IMG/VR virus record: IMGVR_UViG_3300046714_000576
Span: 1 to 33,678 of that record
From: a virus
Length of the DNA: 33,678 nt
Strand: one strand, 5' to 3'
The notes below the pieces were generated by a model, which saw only the letters and a list, made by a program, of their open reading frames with translations, was not told the origin of the DNA and made no database searches. The position numbers were made by a program, and so were the translations under genes. Of the stretch, positions 1,392 to 33,283 are shown piece after piece (positions within the stretch are counted from its first letter, which is position 1; the number at the start of each line of letters is the position of its first letter).

Positions 1392-1454
1392 GTACAGAAA
1401 ATCTGTATTAGAAATAACACATTTATTTTAAGTGTTAAAATAATCACATAAAAG

Positions 1455-1515
1455 AGAAGTTCATCTGCCTTTTATCTATCCGAGGGCATTTAGACTTCTT
1501 CTTTTTCTTTTTATG
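1455..1515 (+). terminator. Putative intrinsic terminator
   Basis: The stem pairs AGAAGT (1455-1460) with ACTTCT (1494-1499), and TGCC (1466-1469) with GGCA (1485-1488). A T-rich tract runs from 1496 to 1513. The stem is interrupted, so strength is uncertain, but the position 60 bp after the lipoprotein stop suits a terminator. It would isolate the structured region downstream. Confidence 0.45.
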
Positions 1516-1582
1516 GAATGCTCTGAAGAGCTGTTTGACAAACTGCATAAATACGACCTGATAGGCTTATAACATAAAAAAA

Positions 1583-2137
1583 TACCCAGACTTCATAAAA
1601 ATGTTTACTTTCTATGGGGTCTGGGTACTTTAAGCGTACACTTACGGAAAATAGGTGCGCTTACTGATAGCATCTGGTTTGACAGATACAGTCTGCGGTA
1701 TAGACGAAGCGTGATCCAATTGCAAGAGAAATTCTTGCTGGAAAGTTGAGAGACTGAAACAGGTAAAGCTGGCCGGTGAATAAGGAAGTTCATGGGTGCA
1801 CCTCGAAAACGAGTTAGGATAGGCTATCAGGAACACAACGCGAATACAGGGCTGAAATATTGCCTGGCGTGCGAACACACTGCGACGATACCCCGGATTC
1901 GCAGGGAGAAGATTGTTTCTCCACCTTTGAAGGATTCAAGGGGATTTTCCCTCAGGCGACCGACGGGCTGGCTCCATACTGAGCATATGTCAGAACCCCG
2001 ATCCTCTGTAGTTTTGAGCAGGCTTTCCTGTATTTAGGATACGTGTATCTTATCAGAGCTTAAAAGAGATAAATGTACAAAGAGATTAAAACTCATGTAT
2101 TTCAATTCTTTATATCTTTGATATAACCCCTGCTCAA
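1583..2137 (+). ncRNA. Candidate large structured non-coding RNA
   Basis: About 790 bp between stop codon 1391 and start codon 2181 contain no convincing gene. From 1621 to 2040 GC is about 48% by my count, well above the flanking genes. The region is dense in pairings. Hairpins: 1583-1597/1613-1627 (15 bp, two G-U), 1672-1676/1683-1687, 1722-1727/1733-1738, 1905-1910/1917-1922, 1924-1931/1935-1942 (one G-U), 1971-1974/1981-1984, and CTCG-AAAA-CGAG at 1802-1813. Long-range helices: 1631-1636/1658-1663, 1664-1671/1823-1830 (8 bp), 1840-1845/1897-1902, 2014-2022/2129-2137 (9 bp). 1653-1658/1798-1803 could form a pseudoknot. The G-U pairs exist only if the + strand is the RNA; on the minus strand they become A-C mismatches. 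The unpaired parts are A-rich, as in folded RNAs. Size and setting recall large ornate phage RNAs such as GOLLD or ROOL, but I cannot match a known consensus. A TTGACA at 1535-1540 could be part of its promoter. Ends are approximate. Confidence 0.6.
1987..2004 (+). repeat. 18-bp direct repeat, copy 1 (in ncRNA region)
   Basis: ATGTCAGAACCCCGATCC occurs here, near the 3' side of the structured region, and again unchanged at 2684-2701 inside the last codons of the endonuclease gene. The two copies bracket about 680 bp that hold the 3' end of the RNA and nearly all of the endonuclease gene. Confidence 0.9.
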
Positions 2138-2180
2138 GCTCTCTCAAAGCTTCACCACCTAAGCATAGCAGGAATGGAAA

Positions 2181-2732
2181 ATGCGGAAAAGAAAAGCAAG
2201 CCGATTTAAAAAGTTAAAAAGAAAGAATAGCTCAGTTCGATCTGCCTTAAAAAAAAATGAACCGGTTAACCAAAAAGATCTTTCGACTTATTTACAATTT
2301 AATCCGCCTGCGTCAGATCGATGGTTTCAAAGACGATGGAAAGAGTCGGGTATGTTACACTGGTTAGACAGATTTAATTCTTGTGAAGGACCATATATCC
2401 CTGACTGTATCAATAGAAATAAAAAATATGTGATCGAAGTGAATGGGAGTATTCATGAGACTCCTGAAATGATAAAAAAGGATTTAGAAAAAAAAAGATA
2501 CTTTGAGTCATTGAAATTTAAGTTTTTTGTTGTGAAACCTTATGACAATAAAAGTTTTAATGAATTAGTCATAGCTGTGAGAGAATTAAGAATTTCAAAG
2601 AAAAACAAATGGGATAAAGAAATTCCTCAATGTAACTCGCATCTCACACTTTCCCCTAAGTGTTTGAAACGAAAGCCGATCTCATGTCAGAACCCCGATC
2701 CGACAGGGAGTAGAATTTTTATGTTCTTGTAA
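2181..2732 (+). CDS. Vsr/DUF559-like endonuclease
   Basis: 183 residues. The first 35 are strongly basic (MRKRKASRFKKLKRK), probably for DNA or RNA binding. Residues about 43-135 match the DUF559/Vsr-type PD-(D/E)xK fold: SDRWFQRRW, then GPYIPD with Asp75, VIEVNG with Glu86, His92 six residues on (VNGSIH), Lys-Asp near 100, and FFVVKPYDNKSFNELV. Related enzymes are mismatch nickases or homing endonucleases. The last 35 or so residues lie beyond the domain and are encoded by GC-richer DNA with a hairpin (2646-2651/2658-2663) and the second copy of the 18-bp repeat, so this tail may be read through RNA-like sequence rather than evolved protein. The ATG follows an AGGA-type Shine-Dalgarno. Its place right behind the candidate RNA suggests a linked mobile unit. 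Homing endonuclease is my favoured role, unproven. Confidence 0.72.
   Translation: MRKRKASRFKKLKRKNSSVRSALKKNEPVNQKDLSTYLQFNPPASDRWFQRRWKESGMLHWLDRFNSCEGPYIPDCINRNKKYVIEVNGSIHETPEMIKKDLEKKRYFESLKFKFFVVKPYDNKSFNELVIAVRELRISKKNKWDKEIPQCNSHLTLSPKCLKRKPISCQNPDPTGSRIFMFL
2684..2701 (+). repeat. 18-bp direct repeat, copy 2 (in endonuclease 3' end)
   Basis: Identical to 1987-2004. It lies in the terminal codons of the endonuclease gene (residues around CQNPD), 31 bp before the stop. Confidence 0.9.
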
Positions 2733-2783: not shown

Positions 2784-3059
2784 TTATTTACTCACAATGT
2801 CCCAGAAATGATCTCTGAATGTTTTTTCCCATGCAGGAGGTAAATCTGAAGGTTTATTGTCTTTACCTAGAAGTAAGTTTTCTTTGATTTGCATGAATAA
2901 TCCTTCAATGAATCCACGATCTGAATCACCTAAACCTAAAGTAGTATAAAGCTCATCATCATTTTTTTTCACACAACAACGTAAACAGAGACTCTCTCCT
3001 GGATCATATTCATACAGAGCTGTCTTTTTTTTGCAGTGAGCACACTCATTCTGGTTCAT
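2784..3059 (-). CDS. Small zinc-ribbon protein
   Basis: 91 residues with an N-terminal zinc ribbon: C6-x2-C9 (CAHC) and C26-x2-C29 (CLRC, with a further Cys30). The rest is mainly helical and carries no recognised motif. It is the last gene of a tightly packed minus-strand group and overlaps the 45-codon zinc-ribbon gene upstream by 14 bp, which suggests translational coupling. Function is unknown; binding nucleic acid or a host protein would be typical of such phage early proteins. Confidence 0.7.
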   Translation of the reverse strand: MNQNECAHCKKKTALYEYDPGESLCLRCCVKKNDDELYTTLGLGDSDRGFIEGLFMQIKENLLLGKDNKPSDLPPAWEKTFRDHFWDIVSK

Positions 3060-3183
3060 CTTGATCTTTCATATCATCGATTTGAGCGGTGTAACAATCG
3101 ATACAGATATACTCTCCTGACGCTGTCTCATAATCACCTATTTTTTCACCACAGTATTCACATTCATAATAATCGGGTACCAT
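3046..3183 (-). CDS. Zinc-ribbon microprotein, 45 aa
   Basis: MVPDYYECEYCGEKIGDYET is followed by a second knuckle, CIDC, so two CxxC pairs lie about 19 residues apart: a compact treble-clef or ribbon. A strong Shine-Dalgarno (AGGAGG) lies seven bases before the ATG. It overlaps both neighbours in other frames, as expected of a compact operon. Two zinc ribbons in a row could be a duplicated or split function. No specific role can be given. Confidence 0.75.
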   Translation of the reverse strand: MVPDYYECEYCGEKIGDYETASGEYICIDCYTAQIDDMKDQDEPE

Positions 3184-3337
3184 AAATGTCCTCCTGATAG
3201 GTTCTGTGAAAATCCTTATCGATTCGTATCAACTCTTTTTCTAACTCTTCGTCTGTGAGAGATCTAGATTTTTTGTGTAGAGGTATCTTTTGAATGATGT
3301 CTCTCATGATAAGATTCATTTTTTCAATGAGATCCAT
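3164..3337 (-). CDS. Hypothetical small charged protein, 57 aa
   Basis: MDLIEKMNLIMRDIIQKIPL, then a Lys/Glu-rich helix (SLTDEELEKELIRIDKDF). Not recognised. The ATG overlaps the stop of the ribbon-helix-helix gene in a TAATG arrangement, so translation is probably coupled. Its 3' end overlaps the zinc-ribbon microprotein by 20 bp and contains that gene's Shine-Dalgarno. It probably forms a helical hairpin. Confidence 0.6.
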   Translation of the reverse strand: MDLIEKMNLIMRDIIQKIPLHKKSRSLTDEELEKELIRIDKDFHRTYQEDIYGTRLL

Positions 3338-3534
3338 TAGTTCTTATTCTCAAGCTTTTTCATCTCTTCTGAGAACTGAGTGAGACAAGCTGTAATGAGC
3401 TCATTCCAACTGAATTCTTTCATGATCCTAAAGCTATTGACCTCATTAAAAAGATCGTGAGGGACTCTCGCGGATAGAACTGTATAGTCTGGTCTTTGTG
3501 GTATGAATTCTAATATTGTTTTTCTTTTTTTCAT
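3337..3534 (-). CDS. Ribbon-helix-helix (CopG/Arc-like) DNA-binding protein
   Basis: 65 residues. After a basic N-terminus, the segment TVLSARVPHDLFNEVNSF gives a beta strand followed by a helix. A turn and second helix (FSWNELITACLTQFSEEM) complete the RHH pattern. RHH proteins bind DNA as dimers through the strand and act as repressors or antitoxins. No toxin-like partner is adjacent, so a transcription regulator of this operon is more likely. The repeated TATAG half-sites at 5128-5185 are a candidate target. The start overlaps the upstream gene's stop by 4 bp. Confidence 0.68.
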   Translation of the reverse strand: MKKRKTILEFIPQRPDYTVLSARVPHDLFNEVNSFRIMKEFSWNELITACLTQFSEEMKKLENKN

Positions 3535-3734
3535 AAATCCTCTTTTTCTTCTAGTGTCAGTTCAACGATAAAATCTAAAACATCAAATTTTGGATTCAGT
3601 AATCTTTGAGCGATAAAATGTCTAATATACATCTCTTGCCAGAGTCTAAGTCTCTTTGGATTTTGACTTCCCCAGCCCTCGTATTCTTTTTGAGCTAAAT
3701 CTAAAGCATGAGAAATTGATTTTATATTATCCAT
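3531..3734 (-). CDS. Hypothetical helical protein, 67 aa
   Basis: MDNIKSISHALDLAQKEYEG, then a Trp/Arg-rich helix (RLRLWQEMYIRHFIAQRLL) and an acidic C-terminus. Not recognised. The ATG at 3734 is chosen over an upstream TTG because AAAGGA lies just before it. It is the first gene of the 3734-to-2784 group and is coupled to the ribbon-helix-helix gene by a 4-bp overlap. Confidence 0.6.
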   Translation of the reverse strand: MDNIKSISHALDLAQKEYEGWGSQNPKRLRLWQEMYIRHFIAQRLLNPKFDVLDFIVELTLEEKEDL

Positions 3735-3748
3735 ATATCCTTTCAAAT

Positions 3749-3779
3749 ACCCAAGAAGAGAAGAGCTCTCTCCTTGGGT
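3749..3779 (-). terminator. Inverted repeat, possible weak terminator
   Basis: ACCCAAG (3749-3755) pairs with CTTGGGT (3773-3779), and an inner GAGAGCTCTC palindrome can extend the fold. It sits after the exported-protein gene on the minus strand, but no real T tract follows, so it may be a partial terminator or an RNA-processing structure. Confidence 0.35.
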
Positions 3780-3799
3780 TATGAGTTTCTGTTAGCTCG

Positions 3800-4369
3800 T
3801 TATTTCGCGCTATCCGAATTTGACTGATGATCTTGGGCATCAGAACTTACAGATTTTGATCCAGAGATCACTTTCTTCTGATTCTCTGAAATTCGATCTC
3901 GTTCTTCATGGTCTGACCAATGTTTTTGAAACCATTCCCAACGTATAAATTCTTTCATTGGTTTTTTTCTTTGGATAACTTTACCGTTTTCCCTAAATAG
4001 GATATTATGACTAGGCGTACGACCATTCAACACTTCTACCAAAGCATAAGCTCTTTTCTGAATTCTATAGAGCTCGAATTCCTCTTCATTCACAATGAAG
4101 TCACCTGCTTGAGCGATATCGGGTGTTGAAACAATTGTTTCCTCCGCACTCCCTCTTTCACTGAGATCTTCAAAATGTCGACGAAGTCTTTTTTGAAAAT
4201 CTTCATATTTTTTAATCCCCATTTTTTCCTTAAGCTTGTGAATCGATTGAAAGAGCTCTATGTGAGCCGCGCTGAACTGACGATTATTGTCATGAGCTTT
4301 TGAAGCTGATGCATCCTGTGATAAAGTAAAAAGCATAACTACAGTTAACATTTTTATTACATTTTTCAT
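3800..4369 (-). CDS. Exported protein of unknown function
   Basis: 189 residues with a classical Sec signal peptide: MKNVIKMLTVVMLFTLSQDA and a probable cleavage after ASA (ASA-SKAHD). The mature part is charged and mostly helical (KLKEKMGIKKYEDFQKRLRR), with a middle segment around GRTPSHNILFRENG and an acidic Ser/Asp-rich C-terminus. No catalytic motif or family is recognised. It lies between a strong terminator (4398-4434) and a weaker repeat (3749-3779), so it is probably its own transcription unit. A secreted protein among phage microprotein genes could be a lysis, exclusion or surface-modifying factor. Confidence 0.6.
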   Translation of the reverse strand: MKNVIKMLTVVMLFTLSQDASASKAHDNNRQFSAAHIELFQSIHKLKEKMGIKKYEDFQKRLRRHFEDLSERGSAEETIVSTPDIAQAGDFIVNEEEFELYRIQKRAYALVEVLNGRTPSHNILFRENGKVIQRKKPMKEFIRWEWFQKHWSDHEERDRISENQKKVISGSKSVSSDAQDHQSNSDSAK

Positions 4370-4397
4370 AATTCCTCTTTCCTTAGTTTTAAAAAAA

Positions 4398-4434
4398 CCA
4401 CGTGAGTCTAAGTCAAGTTTATAGACTCACGTGG
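4398..4434 (-). terminator. Strong intrinsic terminator (minus strand)
   Basis: A perfect 13-bp stem (4398-4410 with 4422-4434) and an 11-base loop, followed on the minus strand by TTTTTTT. It ends the minus-strand unit of genes between 5081 and 4454. Confidence 0.88.
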
Positions 4435-4453
4435 CATGCTTGGTTCAAGCAAC

Positions 4454-4534
4454 TTATAAAGTACCTGCAAACATCAGTGCAAATAACGCTATAAAAAATA
4501 CTAAGACACTTAAAATGAGTAAAAAATTAATCAT
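4454..4534 (-). CDS. Membrane microprotein, 26 aa
   Basis: MINFLLILSVLVFFIALFAL and six more residues: essentially one transmembrane helix with no charged residue. The ATG overlaps the stop of the upstream membrane protein (ATGA), and AAGGAAA precedes it, so it looks translated. It is the last gene before the strong terminator. A small pure-helix protein paired with a single-pass membrane protein suggests a lysis, holin-like or membrane-regulator role, but that is inference. Confidence 0.6.
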   Translation of the reverse strand: MINFLLILSVLVFFIALFALMFAGTL

Positions 4535-4809
4535 ATCAATTTCCTTCCGATTCCGTATTTCTTTTGAATGACTTGTTCTGCTTGAATCAGTGCATTTAAA
4601 TGAGCTTGAAGCTTTCTGTCTCTCATGATTTGTTGACAGAGCTCATCTTTAGCTTCAGCTTCTTTTTTCATCTCAGCTTCGTGAGCACGAACTCCTAAAT
4701 ACATCGTAATAATAAGAGTTAAGAGCATAGTGATTGTAAAGATCGCAATCGGCCAACCGTTAGGTTCTTGATAAACACCAGGCGTAATCATATAATCATA
4801 TGGATTCAT
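4531..4809 (-). CDS. Single-pass membrane protein with charged C-terminal helix
   Basis: 92 residues. A short polar N-terminus, a transmembrane helix at about 20-41 (PIAIFTITMLLTLIITMYLG), then an Ala/Glu/Lys-rich helical domain likely to form a coiled coil (AHEAEMKKEAEAKDELCQQI) and a basic end. The layout resembles spanin-like or holin-accessory proteins but no family is recognised. It is coupled to the 26-residue microprotein by an ATGA overlap; a 9-bp gap separates it from the 28-residue one upstream. A GGAG-type Shine-Dalgarno precedes the ATG. Confidence 0.65.
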   Translation of the reverse strand: MNPYDYMITPGVYQEPNGWPIAIFTITMLLTLIITMYLGVRAHEAEMKKEAEAKDELCQQIMRDRKLQAHLNALIQAEQVIQKKYGIGRKLI

Positions 4810-12666: not shown

Positions 12667-13893
12667 ATGAAATCTCAGATAAAAATTGATCCAAAAAATT
12701 TACTCATTATACCTATTACTGAAATTAAAATTAATCCTAAAAATAGAAATAAACATTCAAAAGAACAGATTGATAGACTGTGTCTCATGATTGAAGAGGG
12801 ATTTAGAGATCCTTTGATTATTTCAAATCGAACTGGGCTTTTAGTCTGCGGCCATGGTAGAATTGAAGCCGCTCAGAAATTAGGTATGAGTCACCTTCCT
12901 GTTATTTATCAGGACTTTGAATCAGAAGAAGAAGAATATACTTTCGCTGTAGGACATAACGCCATCGCTCGATGGGCAGAGCTTGATCTACCAGCTATAC
13001 GCGATGACTTAAAAAATCTACCGAATATTGTGATTGATTTACTTGGGATCGAAAATTTTCAAATAGAACCAGAAAAAATAGAGCCACAATGTGATGAGGA
13101 CGATGTTCCAGGAGTTCAAGAATCATTTGTTAAGCTAGGTGATATTTGGAAGCTTGGGAATCACAGGCTCATGTGCGGGGATAGTACGAGCATTGATGCA
13201 GTTGAGAAGCTGATGAATGGTGAGAAGCCTATTCTTATGGTCACTGATCCTCCCTATGGTGTGAAATTAGATCAATCCTGGAGGGATCAAGCTTTAGGAG
13301 ATAAAGCATTAGGTCAAGGGAATAGTAATTTAGTGATGAATGATGATCGTTCTGACTGGTATGATGTTTGGGCTATCGCTCCTGCACAGATTGCTTATGT
13401 TTGGCATGCGAGCTCATTCACTGATGTTGTTATGGAGTCTCTGAGAAAATCCAACTTCGAGGTAAGGCAACAAATCATTTGGAATAAATCAGTCATGGTT
13501 ATGGGAAGATCCGCTTATCATTTTAAGCACGAACCATGTTGGTATGCAGTTAAAAAAGGATGTGATGCGAATTGGAAAGGAGATCGTAAGCAAACGACTG
13601 TATGGGATGCCGCTCCTCCTAACCATATCATGGGTGGATCCAAAGAAGATAAGACAGGACATCCTACTCAAAAACCTGTAATCCTTTATGAAGTACCTAT
13701 TCAAAATCATACAGAAATCAATGATTCTCTTTATGAACCCTTCGGTGGCTCAGGTACTGCTATCATAGCCTGCGAAAAAACAAATCGAAAATGTTTCATG
13801 ATGGAGCTCGATCCTCATTATTGCGCTGTCATTATCGAACGATGGCAGAAGTACACAGGAAAGAAAGCTGAGAGAATCCATGGCGAGACCTAA
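12667..13893 (+). CDS. ParB-domain DNA methyltransferase (beta-class, N6-adenine or N4-cytosine)
   Basis: 408 residues with two parts. Residues about 12-100 are a ParB/Srx-like domain: ITEIKINPKNRNKHSKEQID and the GHGR box at 62-65. Residues about 155-400 are a DNA methylase of the N4/N6 family (PF01555 type): MVTDPPYGVK (catalytic DPPYG 194-198), then a target-recognition region, then the SAM-binding block EPFGGSGTAIIACE (357-370). DPPY coming before FxGxG defines the beta class. This fusion is common just ahead of terminase genes in phages. It would modify phage DNA to avoid restriction or to influence packaging. It overlaps the small-terminase gene by 14 bp. The recognition site is not predictable. 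Confidence 0.92.
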   Translation: MKSQIKIDPKNLLIIPITEIKINPKNRNKHSKEQIDRLCLMIEEGFRDPLIISNRTGLLVCGHGRIEAAQKLGMSHLPVIYQDFESEEEEYTFAVGHNAIARWAELDLPAIRDDLKNLPNIVIDLLGIENFQIEPEKIEPQCDEDDVPGVQESFVKLGDIWKLGNHRLMCGDSTSIDAVEKLMNGEKPILMVTDPPYGVKLDQSWRDQALGDKALGQGNSNLVMNDDRSDWYDVWAIAPAQIAYVWHASSFTDVVMESLRKSNFEVRQQIIWNKSVMVMGRSAYHFKHEPCWYAVKKGCDANWKGDRKQTTVWDAAPPNHIMGGSKEDKTGHPTQKPVILYEVPIQNHTEINDSLYEPFGGSGTAIIACEKTNRKCFMMELDPHYCAVIIERWQKYTGKKAERIHGET

Positions 13894-23712: not shown

Positions 23713-25017
23713 ATGTTAACATTAAACGAAATAGATAAGATGTCTGAGTCAGCATCTATTCCGAATACATCCGGGAAAACGGTTGCATTCGTGGATAGAA
23801 AATCAGGAGTTCATGCCATTCCAAAGAACGTACAGGCTTTGAAAGAAGCGACTTGGGATAATGAATTCATGCGTGGGTTTAGAAAAACATTTGAGAAAAA
23901 ACATGGTTTTGACTTTGCAGATTCAAAGGCATTTCCTGTCATGGAATCTAAATTCAGTTGGAAAAAAGTAGCCGAAAAGTGTGGATTTAGTTCAGTTGAA
24001 GTAGCGATGCGTGAGGCAGATTCAGCTTCTACTTTCACTCAAGTGTTACGTGCAGGTGTTCAAAATATTGTTAACAGTATGTATATGACTGTTCCAACAA
24101 CTTTTGAATCCTGGACTAAGACTGTGGCTTCTACAAGAGATACAGAACTCTATGCGCCTTTGCATGGGGTGAGTTTCATGAGAGAAGTCGGTAAGCAAGA
24201 GATTTATAGTGAGTCTCGTGCTGCTGGTCTAGATATTAAGCTTGTGAATCGTAAGTATGGAACCATCTTTGCAGTTGAAAAAGAATTGCTAGAAGATGAC
24301 CAGACTGGACAGTTTGCTCAACAGGCAGGCTTACTCGGTGAATATTGCAGACTAGCCATGGAAGTGATCGTCATGGCAAAAGTAGCTGGAGTATTTACTG
24401 GTGGAGCTTTGGCAAACTATGCAGGCTTAATTGTACCGAATACTGAAACTAAGCCAAGTTATGAATCGAACTATCCATTCACAACCAGTGCAGCTCCATT
24501 TTTAGGTGGTGGATCTAACAGACCGATTTCTTATGGAACTCTGACTCAGCCTAATATTCAGAACGGTTTCATTGGTTTGATGAATCAGTTGAACCTACTT
24601 GGATTAAAAATGCAGGTTGATCCTGATACGATTTTAGTCGGACCAAAATATCGATTTGATATTGCAGTGCTTCTAAACTCTTCATTCTATCCAAGTCAGC
24701 CAGGCAGCACTCAAGGTGATACTGGGAATACTTTTGCGATCAACCCTATTGAGTCAATCGCAAAGGCAGTTGTGACTCGTTTCATGTTTGATAACACTGG
24801 ATCGGTCAATAACAACTCAAGTGCTTGGTACATCTTAGATGGTAAGAAGCCATTCTTTGTTGTGCAAACACGTGAGAGTGCTTCTGTCGTACAAGAAACT
24901 CCTACCTCTGGCGAATCTTTTGATCGAGACATCATTCGATTCAAATGTTCAATGAGAGGAAACGCCGACTACATCGATCCACGTTTCATCTGGCAGGGTT
25001 CTGACGGTACTGTATAA
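23713..25017 (+). CDS. Major capsid protein
   Basis: 434 residues, assigned by position and layout. The N-terminal 100 residues are charged and helical, possibly a delta-like region removed by the protease. Then FTQVLRAGVQNIVNSMYMTV, an N-arm-like segment, and IKLVNRKYGTIFAVEKELLE-DD, an E-loop-like stretch, are followed by NPIESIAKAVVTRFMFDN, which resembles the P-domain strand of HK97-fold capsid proteins. The C-terminus holds DRDIIRFKCSMRGNADYIDP. A strong terminator follows directly, as expected for the most abundant product. Confidence 0.85.
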   Translation: MLTLNEIDKMSESASIPNTSGKTVAFVDRKSGVHAIPKNVQALKEATWDNEFMRGFRKTFEKKHGFDFADSKAFPVMESKFSWKKVAEKCGFSSVEVAMREADSASTFTQVLRAGVQNIVNSMYMTVPTTFESWTKTVASTRDTELYAPLHGVSFMREVGKQEIYSESRAAGLDIKLVNRKYGTIFAVEKELLEDDQTGQFAQQAGLLGEYCRLAMEVIVMAKVAGVFTGGALANYAGLIVPNTETKPSYESNYPFTTSAAPFLGGGSNRPISYGTLTQPNIQNGFIGLMNQLNLLGLKMQVDPDTILVGPKYRFDIAVLLNSSFYPSQPGSTQGDTGNTFAINPIESIAKAVVTRFMFDNTGSVNNNSSAWYILDGKKPFFVVQTRESASVVQETPTSGESFDRDIIRFKCSMRGNADYIDPRFIWQGSDGTV

Positions 25018-25034
25018 ACTGTTCTCCCCAAAAT

Positions 25035-25070
25035 ACGTTAGGCTTTCAGTGACAATTGAAAGCCTAACGT
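25035..25070 (+). terminator. Strong intrinsic terminator after the capsid gene
   Basis: A perfect 14-bp stem (25035-25048 with 25057-25070) and an 8-base loop, followed by TTATATT. It separates head genes from connector and tail genes. The short, mixed T tract implies partial read-through, which would set capsid above tail expression. Confidence 0.85.
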
Positions 25071-25098
25071 TTATATTCAACTCAAGGAGAATAAAAAT

Positions 25099-25518
25099 AT
25101 GGGGAAAAGAACAGTGATCGCTCAAGGATCCGGAAAAAAAGTAGAAGTAGAAACGACAGAAGTTCAAAATGAAATGGACTCTTCGCATGACAATCGAGTG
25201 AATCGATTTGAATCGAAAAAGCAATTTACAAGTCTCGCAGATCGAATTGCAGAGAGTCATCTTTTCATTCGAAATTATAAGTTTAAAGAAGCAGACAAGC
25301 TCTATGCAAGAAATACTCATATCGATTATCGATTTGTGAGTAAGATTTATCCTCATGCAAAAGGAGGACCTCTTTTAGTCGATGAGCCACGATCTGAACA
25401 TCAATCGATTGTAGCCTATGAGAAACAAAAAGAGCTGAAGAAACTCGGTTATAGGCATATTGTCATTGAAGAAAATAGTACTCTTTATGATTGTTTGAAA
25501 CAACTAGGAGAATTATAA
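25099..25518 (+). CDS. Hypothetical protein, 139 aa
   Basis: Basic start (MGKRTVIAQGSGKKVEVETT), a helical section (LADRIAESHLFIRNYKFKEA) and a C-terminal alpha/beta part (ELKKLGYRHIVIEENSTLYD). Not recognised. First gene after the capsid terminator, with an AAGGAG Shine-Dalgarno, and joined to the connector gene by TAATG. It is probably a structural or assembly protein at the head-tail interface. Confidence 0.55.
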   Translation: MGKRTVIAQGSGKKVEVETTEVQNEMDSSHDNRVNRFESKKQFTSLADRIAESHLFIRNYKFKEADKLYARNTHIDYRFVSKIYPHAKGGPLLVDEPRSEHQSIVAYEKQKELKKLGYRHIVIEENSTLYDCLKQLGEL

Positions 25519-31705: not shown

Positions 31706-33283
31706 ATGGGCGTCAGTGATGGTCAAGCAGTCAGTCAAGCGATTACTAATCCAGCTTTCATCAATAAAAATGTCAATGATACGATGCCAAATACTTTAGG
31801 TTTCAATCATCCTTTATCAGGTCCTTCGATTGCAGACATCCAACAGGCTGTAAATAATATTTATAACGCAACTGGAGTATCTGAATCGACATCAGGAACA
31901 GTTTATAATGCGACTCCAAATACGATTTCAAATGGGGATTCTTATGAAGTTGCTTTAGCGATTCTTGCTAATAAGTTCGCAGGCGCTACAGGACATAATC
32001 ATGACGGAACCGATGGTCAAGGGCCACCTATTGCATCCGCAGTTGGATCCATTGCAGCTAGTGGTTATGCACCGCTCACTGGAGCTGTACTCATTGCAGG
32101 TGCGTCAGGTGCCCAAGCAAGTCAATCAGGTCAGATCATTATTATATCAGCGACAGGGCATGTCGATTCGATTTCAGCTCAAGGAAATCCAGCTCTGACA
32201 GGAGATGTTGTTTTAGTTGCGGGTGCGAGTGTGAGCTTATCTCAAGTGGGTCAACAAATTACTATCGCAGCATCAGGCGGCGGAGGCAGTGGAGCTTCTG
32301 GTACTTTTAGTGAAGAGCTTTATAATTTAGGATTAGCAAGCTCTGTTGCAGCGAGCGCGCTCACATTAAATCTCACTCAAATGGACGGAGTCACAACTCC
32401 TGCAACAGGTGCAGGTTCAGTGGAAGTAGGATATAGGCAAGTTCCTGTTACAGGCGGTGGATTTGATGTCATTTCAACAACTTCTTCTTTAAGTTTAACA
32501 GTTCCAAGCGGAGCGACACTAGGAACAGCGAGCGGAGTGAATGCTTATCTTTATGTTTATCTTTTAAATAATGTTGGAGCAAATGAGATTGCAATTTCTG
32601 GATCTAGGAAATGGGATGAGGGAGTATTACAAAATACCACGGTTTTAAATACTTCTTCTGATTCGGGAGATGTTCTTTATTCTACAACTGCAAGAACCGG
32701 AGTTCCGGTTCGTTTGATTCGGCGATTACTCACTAACCAGGCCACTGCTGGAACATGGAATACAAATATAGCAAATATCTCTCCTATCCCTTGGTTACTT
32801 GAATCGGCAAGTTGGTTCGGCAATCATGGATCCGATAGCTCATGGGCTAGAACCAATACTGCATTAGGAGATCCAACTGCGGATTCTACTTCTACTTTCA
32901 CAACGACTTTTTCAAGAAACTTTGGAACGGTCACATCAGCGCTGTCTGGGTCTGATAAACTTCCTGGAATTGTATTTAATCCTCCTTATTTAGGAGGATA
33001 TGAAATTAGTGCAAGATTTACTTTAGCTGAAAGTTCCAATGGAGGTTTTGCAACAGCTGCTTTTTTTGATGGTACAAGTAATTTAGATACAGCGGCAATC
33101 AGAGCATCTCAAGCCAATGATAGCGCAAGTGTCACTTTAATTGGATATTATAATGCGATTAGTTACGCAGCTTTCACCATTAAAATACAAACATCTGCAT
33201 CTGCTGGTACTGTGACGATTGATGCAGAGTCTGCCAATGTGAGCATTGTGGTTGCATGGTCAGTGAAATATTTAGGTCCTTGA
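31706..33283 (+). CDS. Putative tail fibre/adhesin
   Basis: 525 residues, low in Cys and Lys and rich in Ala, Ser, Thr and Gly. Near residue 93 the motif GATGHNHDGTDGQGPP resembles the H-x-H-D-G boxes of trimeric phage fibres. It is followed by alternating GASGAQASQSGQIIIISATG-type repeats (residues about 110-195), likely a beta-helical shaft, and a Gly/Ser hinge. The C-terminal 180 residues (SWFGNHGSDSSWARTN, YEISARFTLAESSNGG, then TVTIDAESANVSIVVAWSVK) look like a jelly-roll head domain. It is probably the host-recognition protein or its base. Confidence 0.68.
   Translation: MGVSDGQAVSQAITNPAFINKNVNDTMPNTLGFNHPLSGPSIADIQQAVNNIYNATGVSESTSGTVYNATPNTISNGDSYEVALAILANKFAGATGHNHDGTDGQGPPIASAVGSIAASGYAPLTGAVLIAGASGAQASQSGQIIIISATGHVDSISAQGNPALTGDVVLVAGASVSLSQVGQQITIAASGGGGSGASGTFSEELYNLGLASSVAASALTLNLTQMDGVTTPATGAGSVEVGYRQVPVTGGGFDVISTTSSLSLTVPSGATLGTASGVNAYLYVYLLNNVGANEIAISGSRKWDEGVLQNTTVLNTSSDSGDVLYSTTARTGVPVRLIRRLLTNQATAGTWNTNIANISPIPWLLESASWFGNHGSDSSWARTNTALGDPTADSTSTFTTTFSRNFGTVTSALSGSDKLPGIVFNPPYLGGYEISARFTLAESSNGGFATAAFFDGTSNLDTAAIRASQANDSASVTLIGYYNAISYAAFTIKIQTSASAGTVTIDAESANVSIVVAWSVKYLGP

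Follow-up and report, generated by a model that had tools for sequence, protein, structure and literature searches.

Structured phage RNAs that occur together with homing endonucleases of the EDxHD/Vsr-like type are known, among them group II and group I introns (PMC12350094). Two other kinds of phage RNA, GOLLD and ROOL, are often found near tRNA islands, although this neighborhood is not obligatory (PMC12286853). The locus described here resembles the phage introns in that a partly structured non-coding stretch is followed by a small Vsr/DUF559-like ORF, and differs from them in having no detected intron core, domain V or interrupted gene and in carrying an 18-bp repeat that brackets the ORF. 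It also resembles free-standing phage homing endonuclease genes, with a small intergenic nuclease ORF preceded by its own ribosome-binding-like site, but is unlike them in being bracketed by an exact direct repeat and in adjoining a G+C-rich non-coding block. With GOLLD and ROOL it shares a non-coding stretch of phage DNA, several hundred nucleotides long, that is predicted to fold; unlike them, it has no model match, no tRNA neighborhood and no relatives, and its folding signal is weaker.

The explanation that we favor, tentatively, is that a homing-type nuclease cassette invaded an orphan structured RNA at its 3' end. The window, by which we mean the whole stretch of DNA analyzed, is a single linear record from a virus, 33,678 bases long and 38% G+C; its genes include those for terminase, portal, head, Erf, SSB and methyltransferase. 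The features of the locus are as follows, with the basis of each in parentheses where one applies.

873-1391, lipoprotein-like ORF that ends at 1391 and forms the left flank of the gap
1451-1513, plus strand, terminator-like hairpin with a U-rich tail, behind the lipoprotein-like ORF (fold; tail read from the sequence)
1535-1540, plus strand, TTGACA, a possible -35 box (sequence only)
1576-1631, minus strand, strong hairpin with a run of seven U after it on that strand (fold)
1632-2004, plus strand, G+C-rich, purine-rich non-coding block, the core of the candidate RNA (composition, codon scores)
1664-1830, plus strand, branched domain closed by CTGATAGC/GCTATCAG (predicted folds, shuffle test)
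1987-2004, plus strand, first copy of the 18-bp direct repeat, with G+C dropping right after it
2014-2137, plus strand, long A+T-rich stem with imperfect pairing, closed by TTGAGCAGG/CCTGCTCAA and lying outside the G+C-rich block (fold)
2170-2173, plus strand, AGGA, which resembles a ribosome-binding site and lies 7 nt upstream of the nuclease ORF's ATG (sequence)
2181-2732, plus strand, ORF of 183 aa, DUF559/Vsr-like nuclease (below-cut-off profile match, motif, codon score)
2684-2701, plus strand, second copy of the 18-bp direct repeat

A sequence-only reading of this DNA had proposed that about 790 bp lack a gene and that G+C rises there to about 48%, and both points were borne out. The gap between the lipoprotein-like and nuclease ORFs (1392-2180) is 789 bp long, and by the codon usage of this phage the ORFs contained in it score between -0.24 and -0.26, whereas the flanking ORFs score positive with their own frame best, the nuclease ORF weakly so. 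The non-coding status of 1392-2180 is thus supported. G+C reaches 49% over 1632-2004, and the best 200-bp window, at 53%, ties for the highest of 3348; the plus strand of the block is 57% purine against a mean of 53%. At the left side of the gap, the hairpin at 1451-1513 (-16.2 kcal/mol on the plus strand, z -3.15, equaled by 1 of 300 shuffles) sets the lipoprotein-like ORF apart from the non-coding region. The TTGACA at 1535-1540 has no good -10 at the usual spacing, and the promoter scan did not list the site.

The left end of the window also encodes, on the minus strand, the beginning of a lipoprotein that has a beta-propeller/lactonase-like part (1-381), relatives of which were found in 15 of 296 spirochaete-phylum genomes; this sequence similarity hints at a spirochaete host for the phage but does not show it. 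Next to it lies a small minus-strand protein that matches the phage endonuclease family phrog_93 (426-872). Further into the window, the plus strand encodes a ParB-like N-terminal domain fused to an N6/N4 DNA methyltransferase (12667-13893).

The folding of the region proved less elaborate than had been proposed. Watson-Crick pairing is exact at 1664-1671/1823-1830, 2014-2022/2129-2137 and 1653-1658/1798-1803, and the G-U sites claimed at 1592-1593/1617-1618 and 1926/1940 are present, but the description as an ornate fold was overstated, since helices of 6-7 bp are just as frequent in shuffles. Helices of at least 6 bp number 30, compared with 28.2 in dinucleotide shuffles, and those of at least 7 bp number 9, compared with 6.9. 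Only the longer helices are somewhat in excess, with 4 of at least 8 bp (1.6 in shuffles, maximum 4) and 2 of at least 9 bp (0.3 in shuffles, maximum 2). The possible pseudoknot at 1653-1658/1798-1803 carries no weight by itself, being a match of 6 bp, a length at which helices are shuffle-like.

The folding energy of 1576-2180 corresponds to z -3.3 on the plus strand and -5.0 on the minus strand, and most of this signal comes from the hairpin at 1576-1631. When that hairpin is left out the values for the two strands fall to -2.1 and -2.3, and for 1632-2004 alone they are -1.5/-1.4. On the minus strand the hairpin itself folds at -25.0 kcal/mol (z -7.9), against -22.1 kcal/mol (z -5.9) on the plus strand, and it is a probable intrinsic terminator of leftward transcription as judged from the predicted fold. 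The G-U pairs had been taken to hold only for the plus strand; with the hairpin stronger on the minus strand and followed there by seven U, those within it do not fix the plus sense. An RNA on the minus strand is accordingly one of the alternatives, in which a leftward transcript, perhaps the tail of an operon at 4809-2784, would end at the 1576-1631 terminator. The better fit of that terminator and of the whole-region z value to the minus strand favors such a transcript, as do the leftward genes at 2784-4809, with no other leftward terminator found in between. We nevertheless judge it improbable, because the domain at 1658-1835 folds better on the plus strand, the purine-rich strand is the plus strand, and the nuclease ORF would be convergent to the transcript.

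Two parts of the region are unusual on the plus strand, and to this extent the proposal of a structured RNA stood, at moderate strength; for the block 1632-2004 as a whole it did not. The branched domain at 1664-1830 includes a hairpin at 1672-1687, a helix at 1688-1693/1748-1753 around a further hairpin, and the hairpins CAG-GTAAAG-CTG, GTGAAT-AAGGAA-GTTCAT and CTCG-AAAA-CGAG. Folding of 1658-1835 gave z -3.3 with none of 300 shuffles as stable on the plus strand, compared with -2.1 and 11 of 300 on the minus strand; these scores are inflated by the choice of the domain borders after folding, and about 4% of this phage's 178-nt windows reach z -3. The second part is the 2014-2137 stem, nearly symmetric between the strands, for which 2013-2138 gave z -4.0 and 1 of 300 shuffles on the plus strand. 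Elsewhere in the window, the strongest local folding signals, on both strands, lie at 4351-4500 and 24976-25125 and are probably terminators.

These same results bear on a second alternative, a serious rival although we consider it somewhat unlikely, that a foreign fragment of higher G+C fills the gap as idle or decayed DNA, its helices reflecting chance plus the terminator hairpin. Consistent with it are the shuffle-like counts of 6-7 bp helices, the z of only -1.5 for 1632-2004 and the lack of conservation in any collection searched. The domain at 1658-1835, which exceeds all 300 shuffles, argues against it, and no gene remnant was recognized among the ORFs scanned. Phages also seldom retain idle DNA of 0.8 kb in length.

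A feature that the sequence-only reading had missed is the exact 18-bp direct repeat ATGTCAGAACCCCGATCC at 1987-2004 and 2684-2701, where a search of the whole window that tolerates up to 3 mismatches would be expected to yield only 0.01 matches. Directly past the first copy G+C falls from 49% to 35%. The two copies bracket most of the nuclease ORF, the final codons of which cross the second copy. Because its two copies are read in different frames, the repeat is not one at the protein level but a feature of the DNA or RNA. The ORF matches PF04480 with an E value of 0.0038 and 17.5 bits, under the cut-off of 20.6, and contains the DUF559/Vsr-like nuclease motif sequence GPYIPDCI...YVIEVNGSIHE; it had no match in NCBIfam or among PDB sequences, and its single-sequence fold (pLDDT 42) was too poor for use. 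From its sequence the encoded nuclease is probably of the homing type.

In our preferred reading, 1632-2004 (perhaps from about 1577) would be transcribed rightward as a functional non-coding RNA with the branched domain at 1664-1830, and a cassette (2005-2701, about 0.7 kb) with the DUF559/Vsr-like endonuclease would have been inserted at the RNA 3' end, its arrival leaving the 18-bp direct repeat. The nuclease, if active, would make its cut near the 18-bp sequence in DNA lacking the cassette, and the cassette would then be copied in by repair; free-standing or intron-borne homing endonucleases provide the model for such spread. We favor an insertion because the repeat brackets the nuclease ORF and G+C falls after the first copy, and the RNA is more likely a gene that was invaded than the RNA component of an intron-like element that escaped recognition. 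Several observations count against this reading. Homing genes normally leave no direct repeat, the modest z value of 1632-2004 and the sub-cut-off DUF559 match have been given above, and the only clear terminator at the border, that at 1576-1631, serves the minus strand. Furthermore, neither a homologue nor a cassette-free site turned up in the collections searched.

The proximity of structured RNA to a Vsr/DUF559-like ORF could also be explained by a self-splicing intron of group I or group II that has diverged or decayed, with the ORF as its homing endonuclease; indeed, two of the phage group II introns with EDxHD/Vsr-like nucleases are intergenic (PMC12350094). Rfam models for group I introns and for group II introns (domain V, D1-D4) were unmatched at E values up to 10, RF01998 gave no hit, and our own descriptor of the group I P3-P7-P8 core gave fewer and weaker hits than in shuffles. 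There was no similarity to 30 loci picked by their maturase domain, and an approximate query for the O. iheyensis IIC intron scored under the shuffle mean. No interrupted gene was visible on the plus strand and no domain V was seen, and we regard an intron as quite improbable.

Kinship with GOLLD and ROOL, which had been suggested on the strength of size, ornate folding and phage setting, was not supported, and membership of the candidate in GOLLD, ROOL, HEARO or OLE, for which only size, phage setting and lack of coding speak, is very improbable. Searches of 1350-2850 and 1632-2150 against Rfam, including these four models, gave no match at gathering and none convincing at E values up to 10, and there is no tRNA in the 33,678 bases.

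HDV-like ribozymes behind phage tRNAs have been described as theta ribozymes (PMC10879173), and two IMG/VR hits of a 17-mer from the window proved to be tRNA-linked HDV-like ribozymes. Their architecture, a nested double pseudoknot with a J4/2 catalytic C, is absent from the window at the shared 17-mer; the descriptor recovers 2 of 3 control ribozymes, and its remaining hits are low-complexity and U-rich. Such ribozymes lie directly 3' of phage tRNAs at L198:7200-7266 and at L204:4163-4230 and 4673-4740, and are unlisted by Rfam at gathering. A link to a diversity-generating retroelement was likewise rejected: self-comparison of the window found no repeat joining the RNA region and the tail protein, and no retroelement repeat. 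The tail-type protein (31706-33283, plus strand), which had prompted the idea, matches over residues 266-353, at 45%, a protein of Pseudomonas phage AH02 named major tropism determinant.

Relatives were sought by DNA, protein, pattern and single-sequence covariance searches in GenBank phages, plasmids, IMG/VR, GTDB contigs (for the nuclease) and 134 loci with an Erf relative. The genomes covered were 393 of one spirochaete phylum, for which the query was the core alone, 199 of the phylum of a Neomarinimicrobiota locus and 46 of one class; the phylum searches scored the two or three best candidates from each genome, and the protein scans of the collections reach close relatives only. No homologue emerged from the phage, plasmid, IMG/VR or sampled GTDB sequences, only short matches at chance level. 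Blastn matches to phages S-SRM01 and RB69 are short and lie within annotated coding genes, four IMG/VR scans with exact 17-18-mers gave nothing or unrelated hits at about chance level, and degenerate patterns from the translated RNA region found nothing. The candidate RNA is known from a single orphan sequence, and it may, but need not, represent a new class.

At present the locus is a lead from one sequence, with a moderate folding signal and no relatives. There is a slim chance that a new class of structured phage RNA and the Vsr/DUF559-like nuclease next to it act together as a single mobile RNA-nuclease element, distinct from group I/II introns and from OMEGA/HEARO systems. If the preferred reading is true, the locus would add a large phage RNA that is as yet unclassified, and it would pair a structured RNA, in an unusual way, with a nuclease of the homing type inserted at the RNA 3' end.
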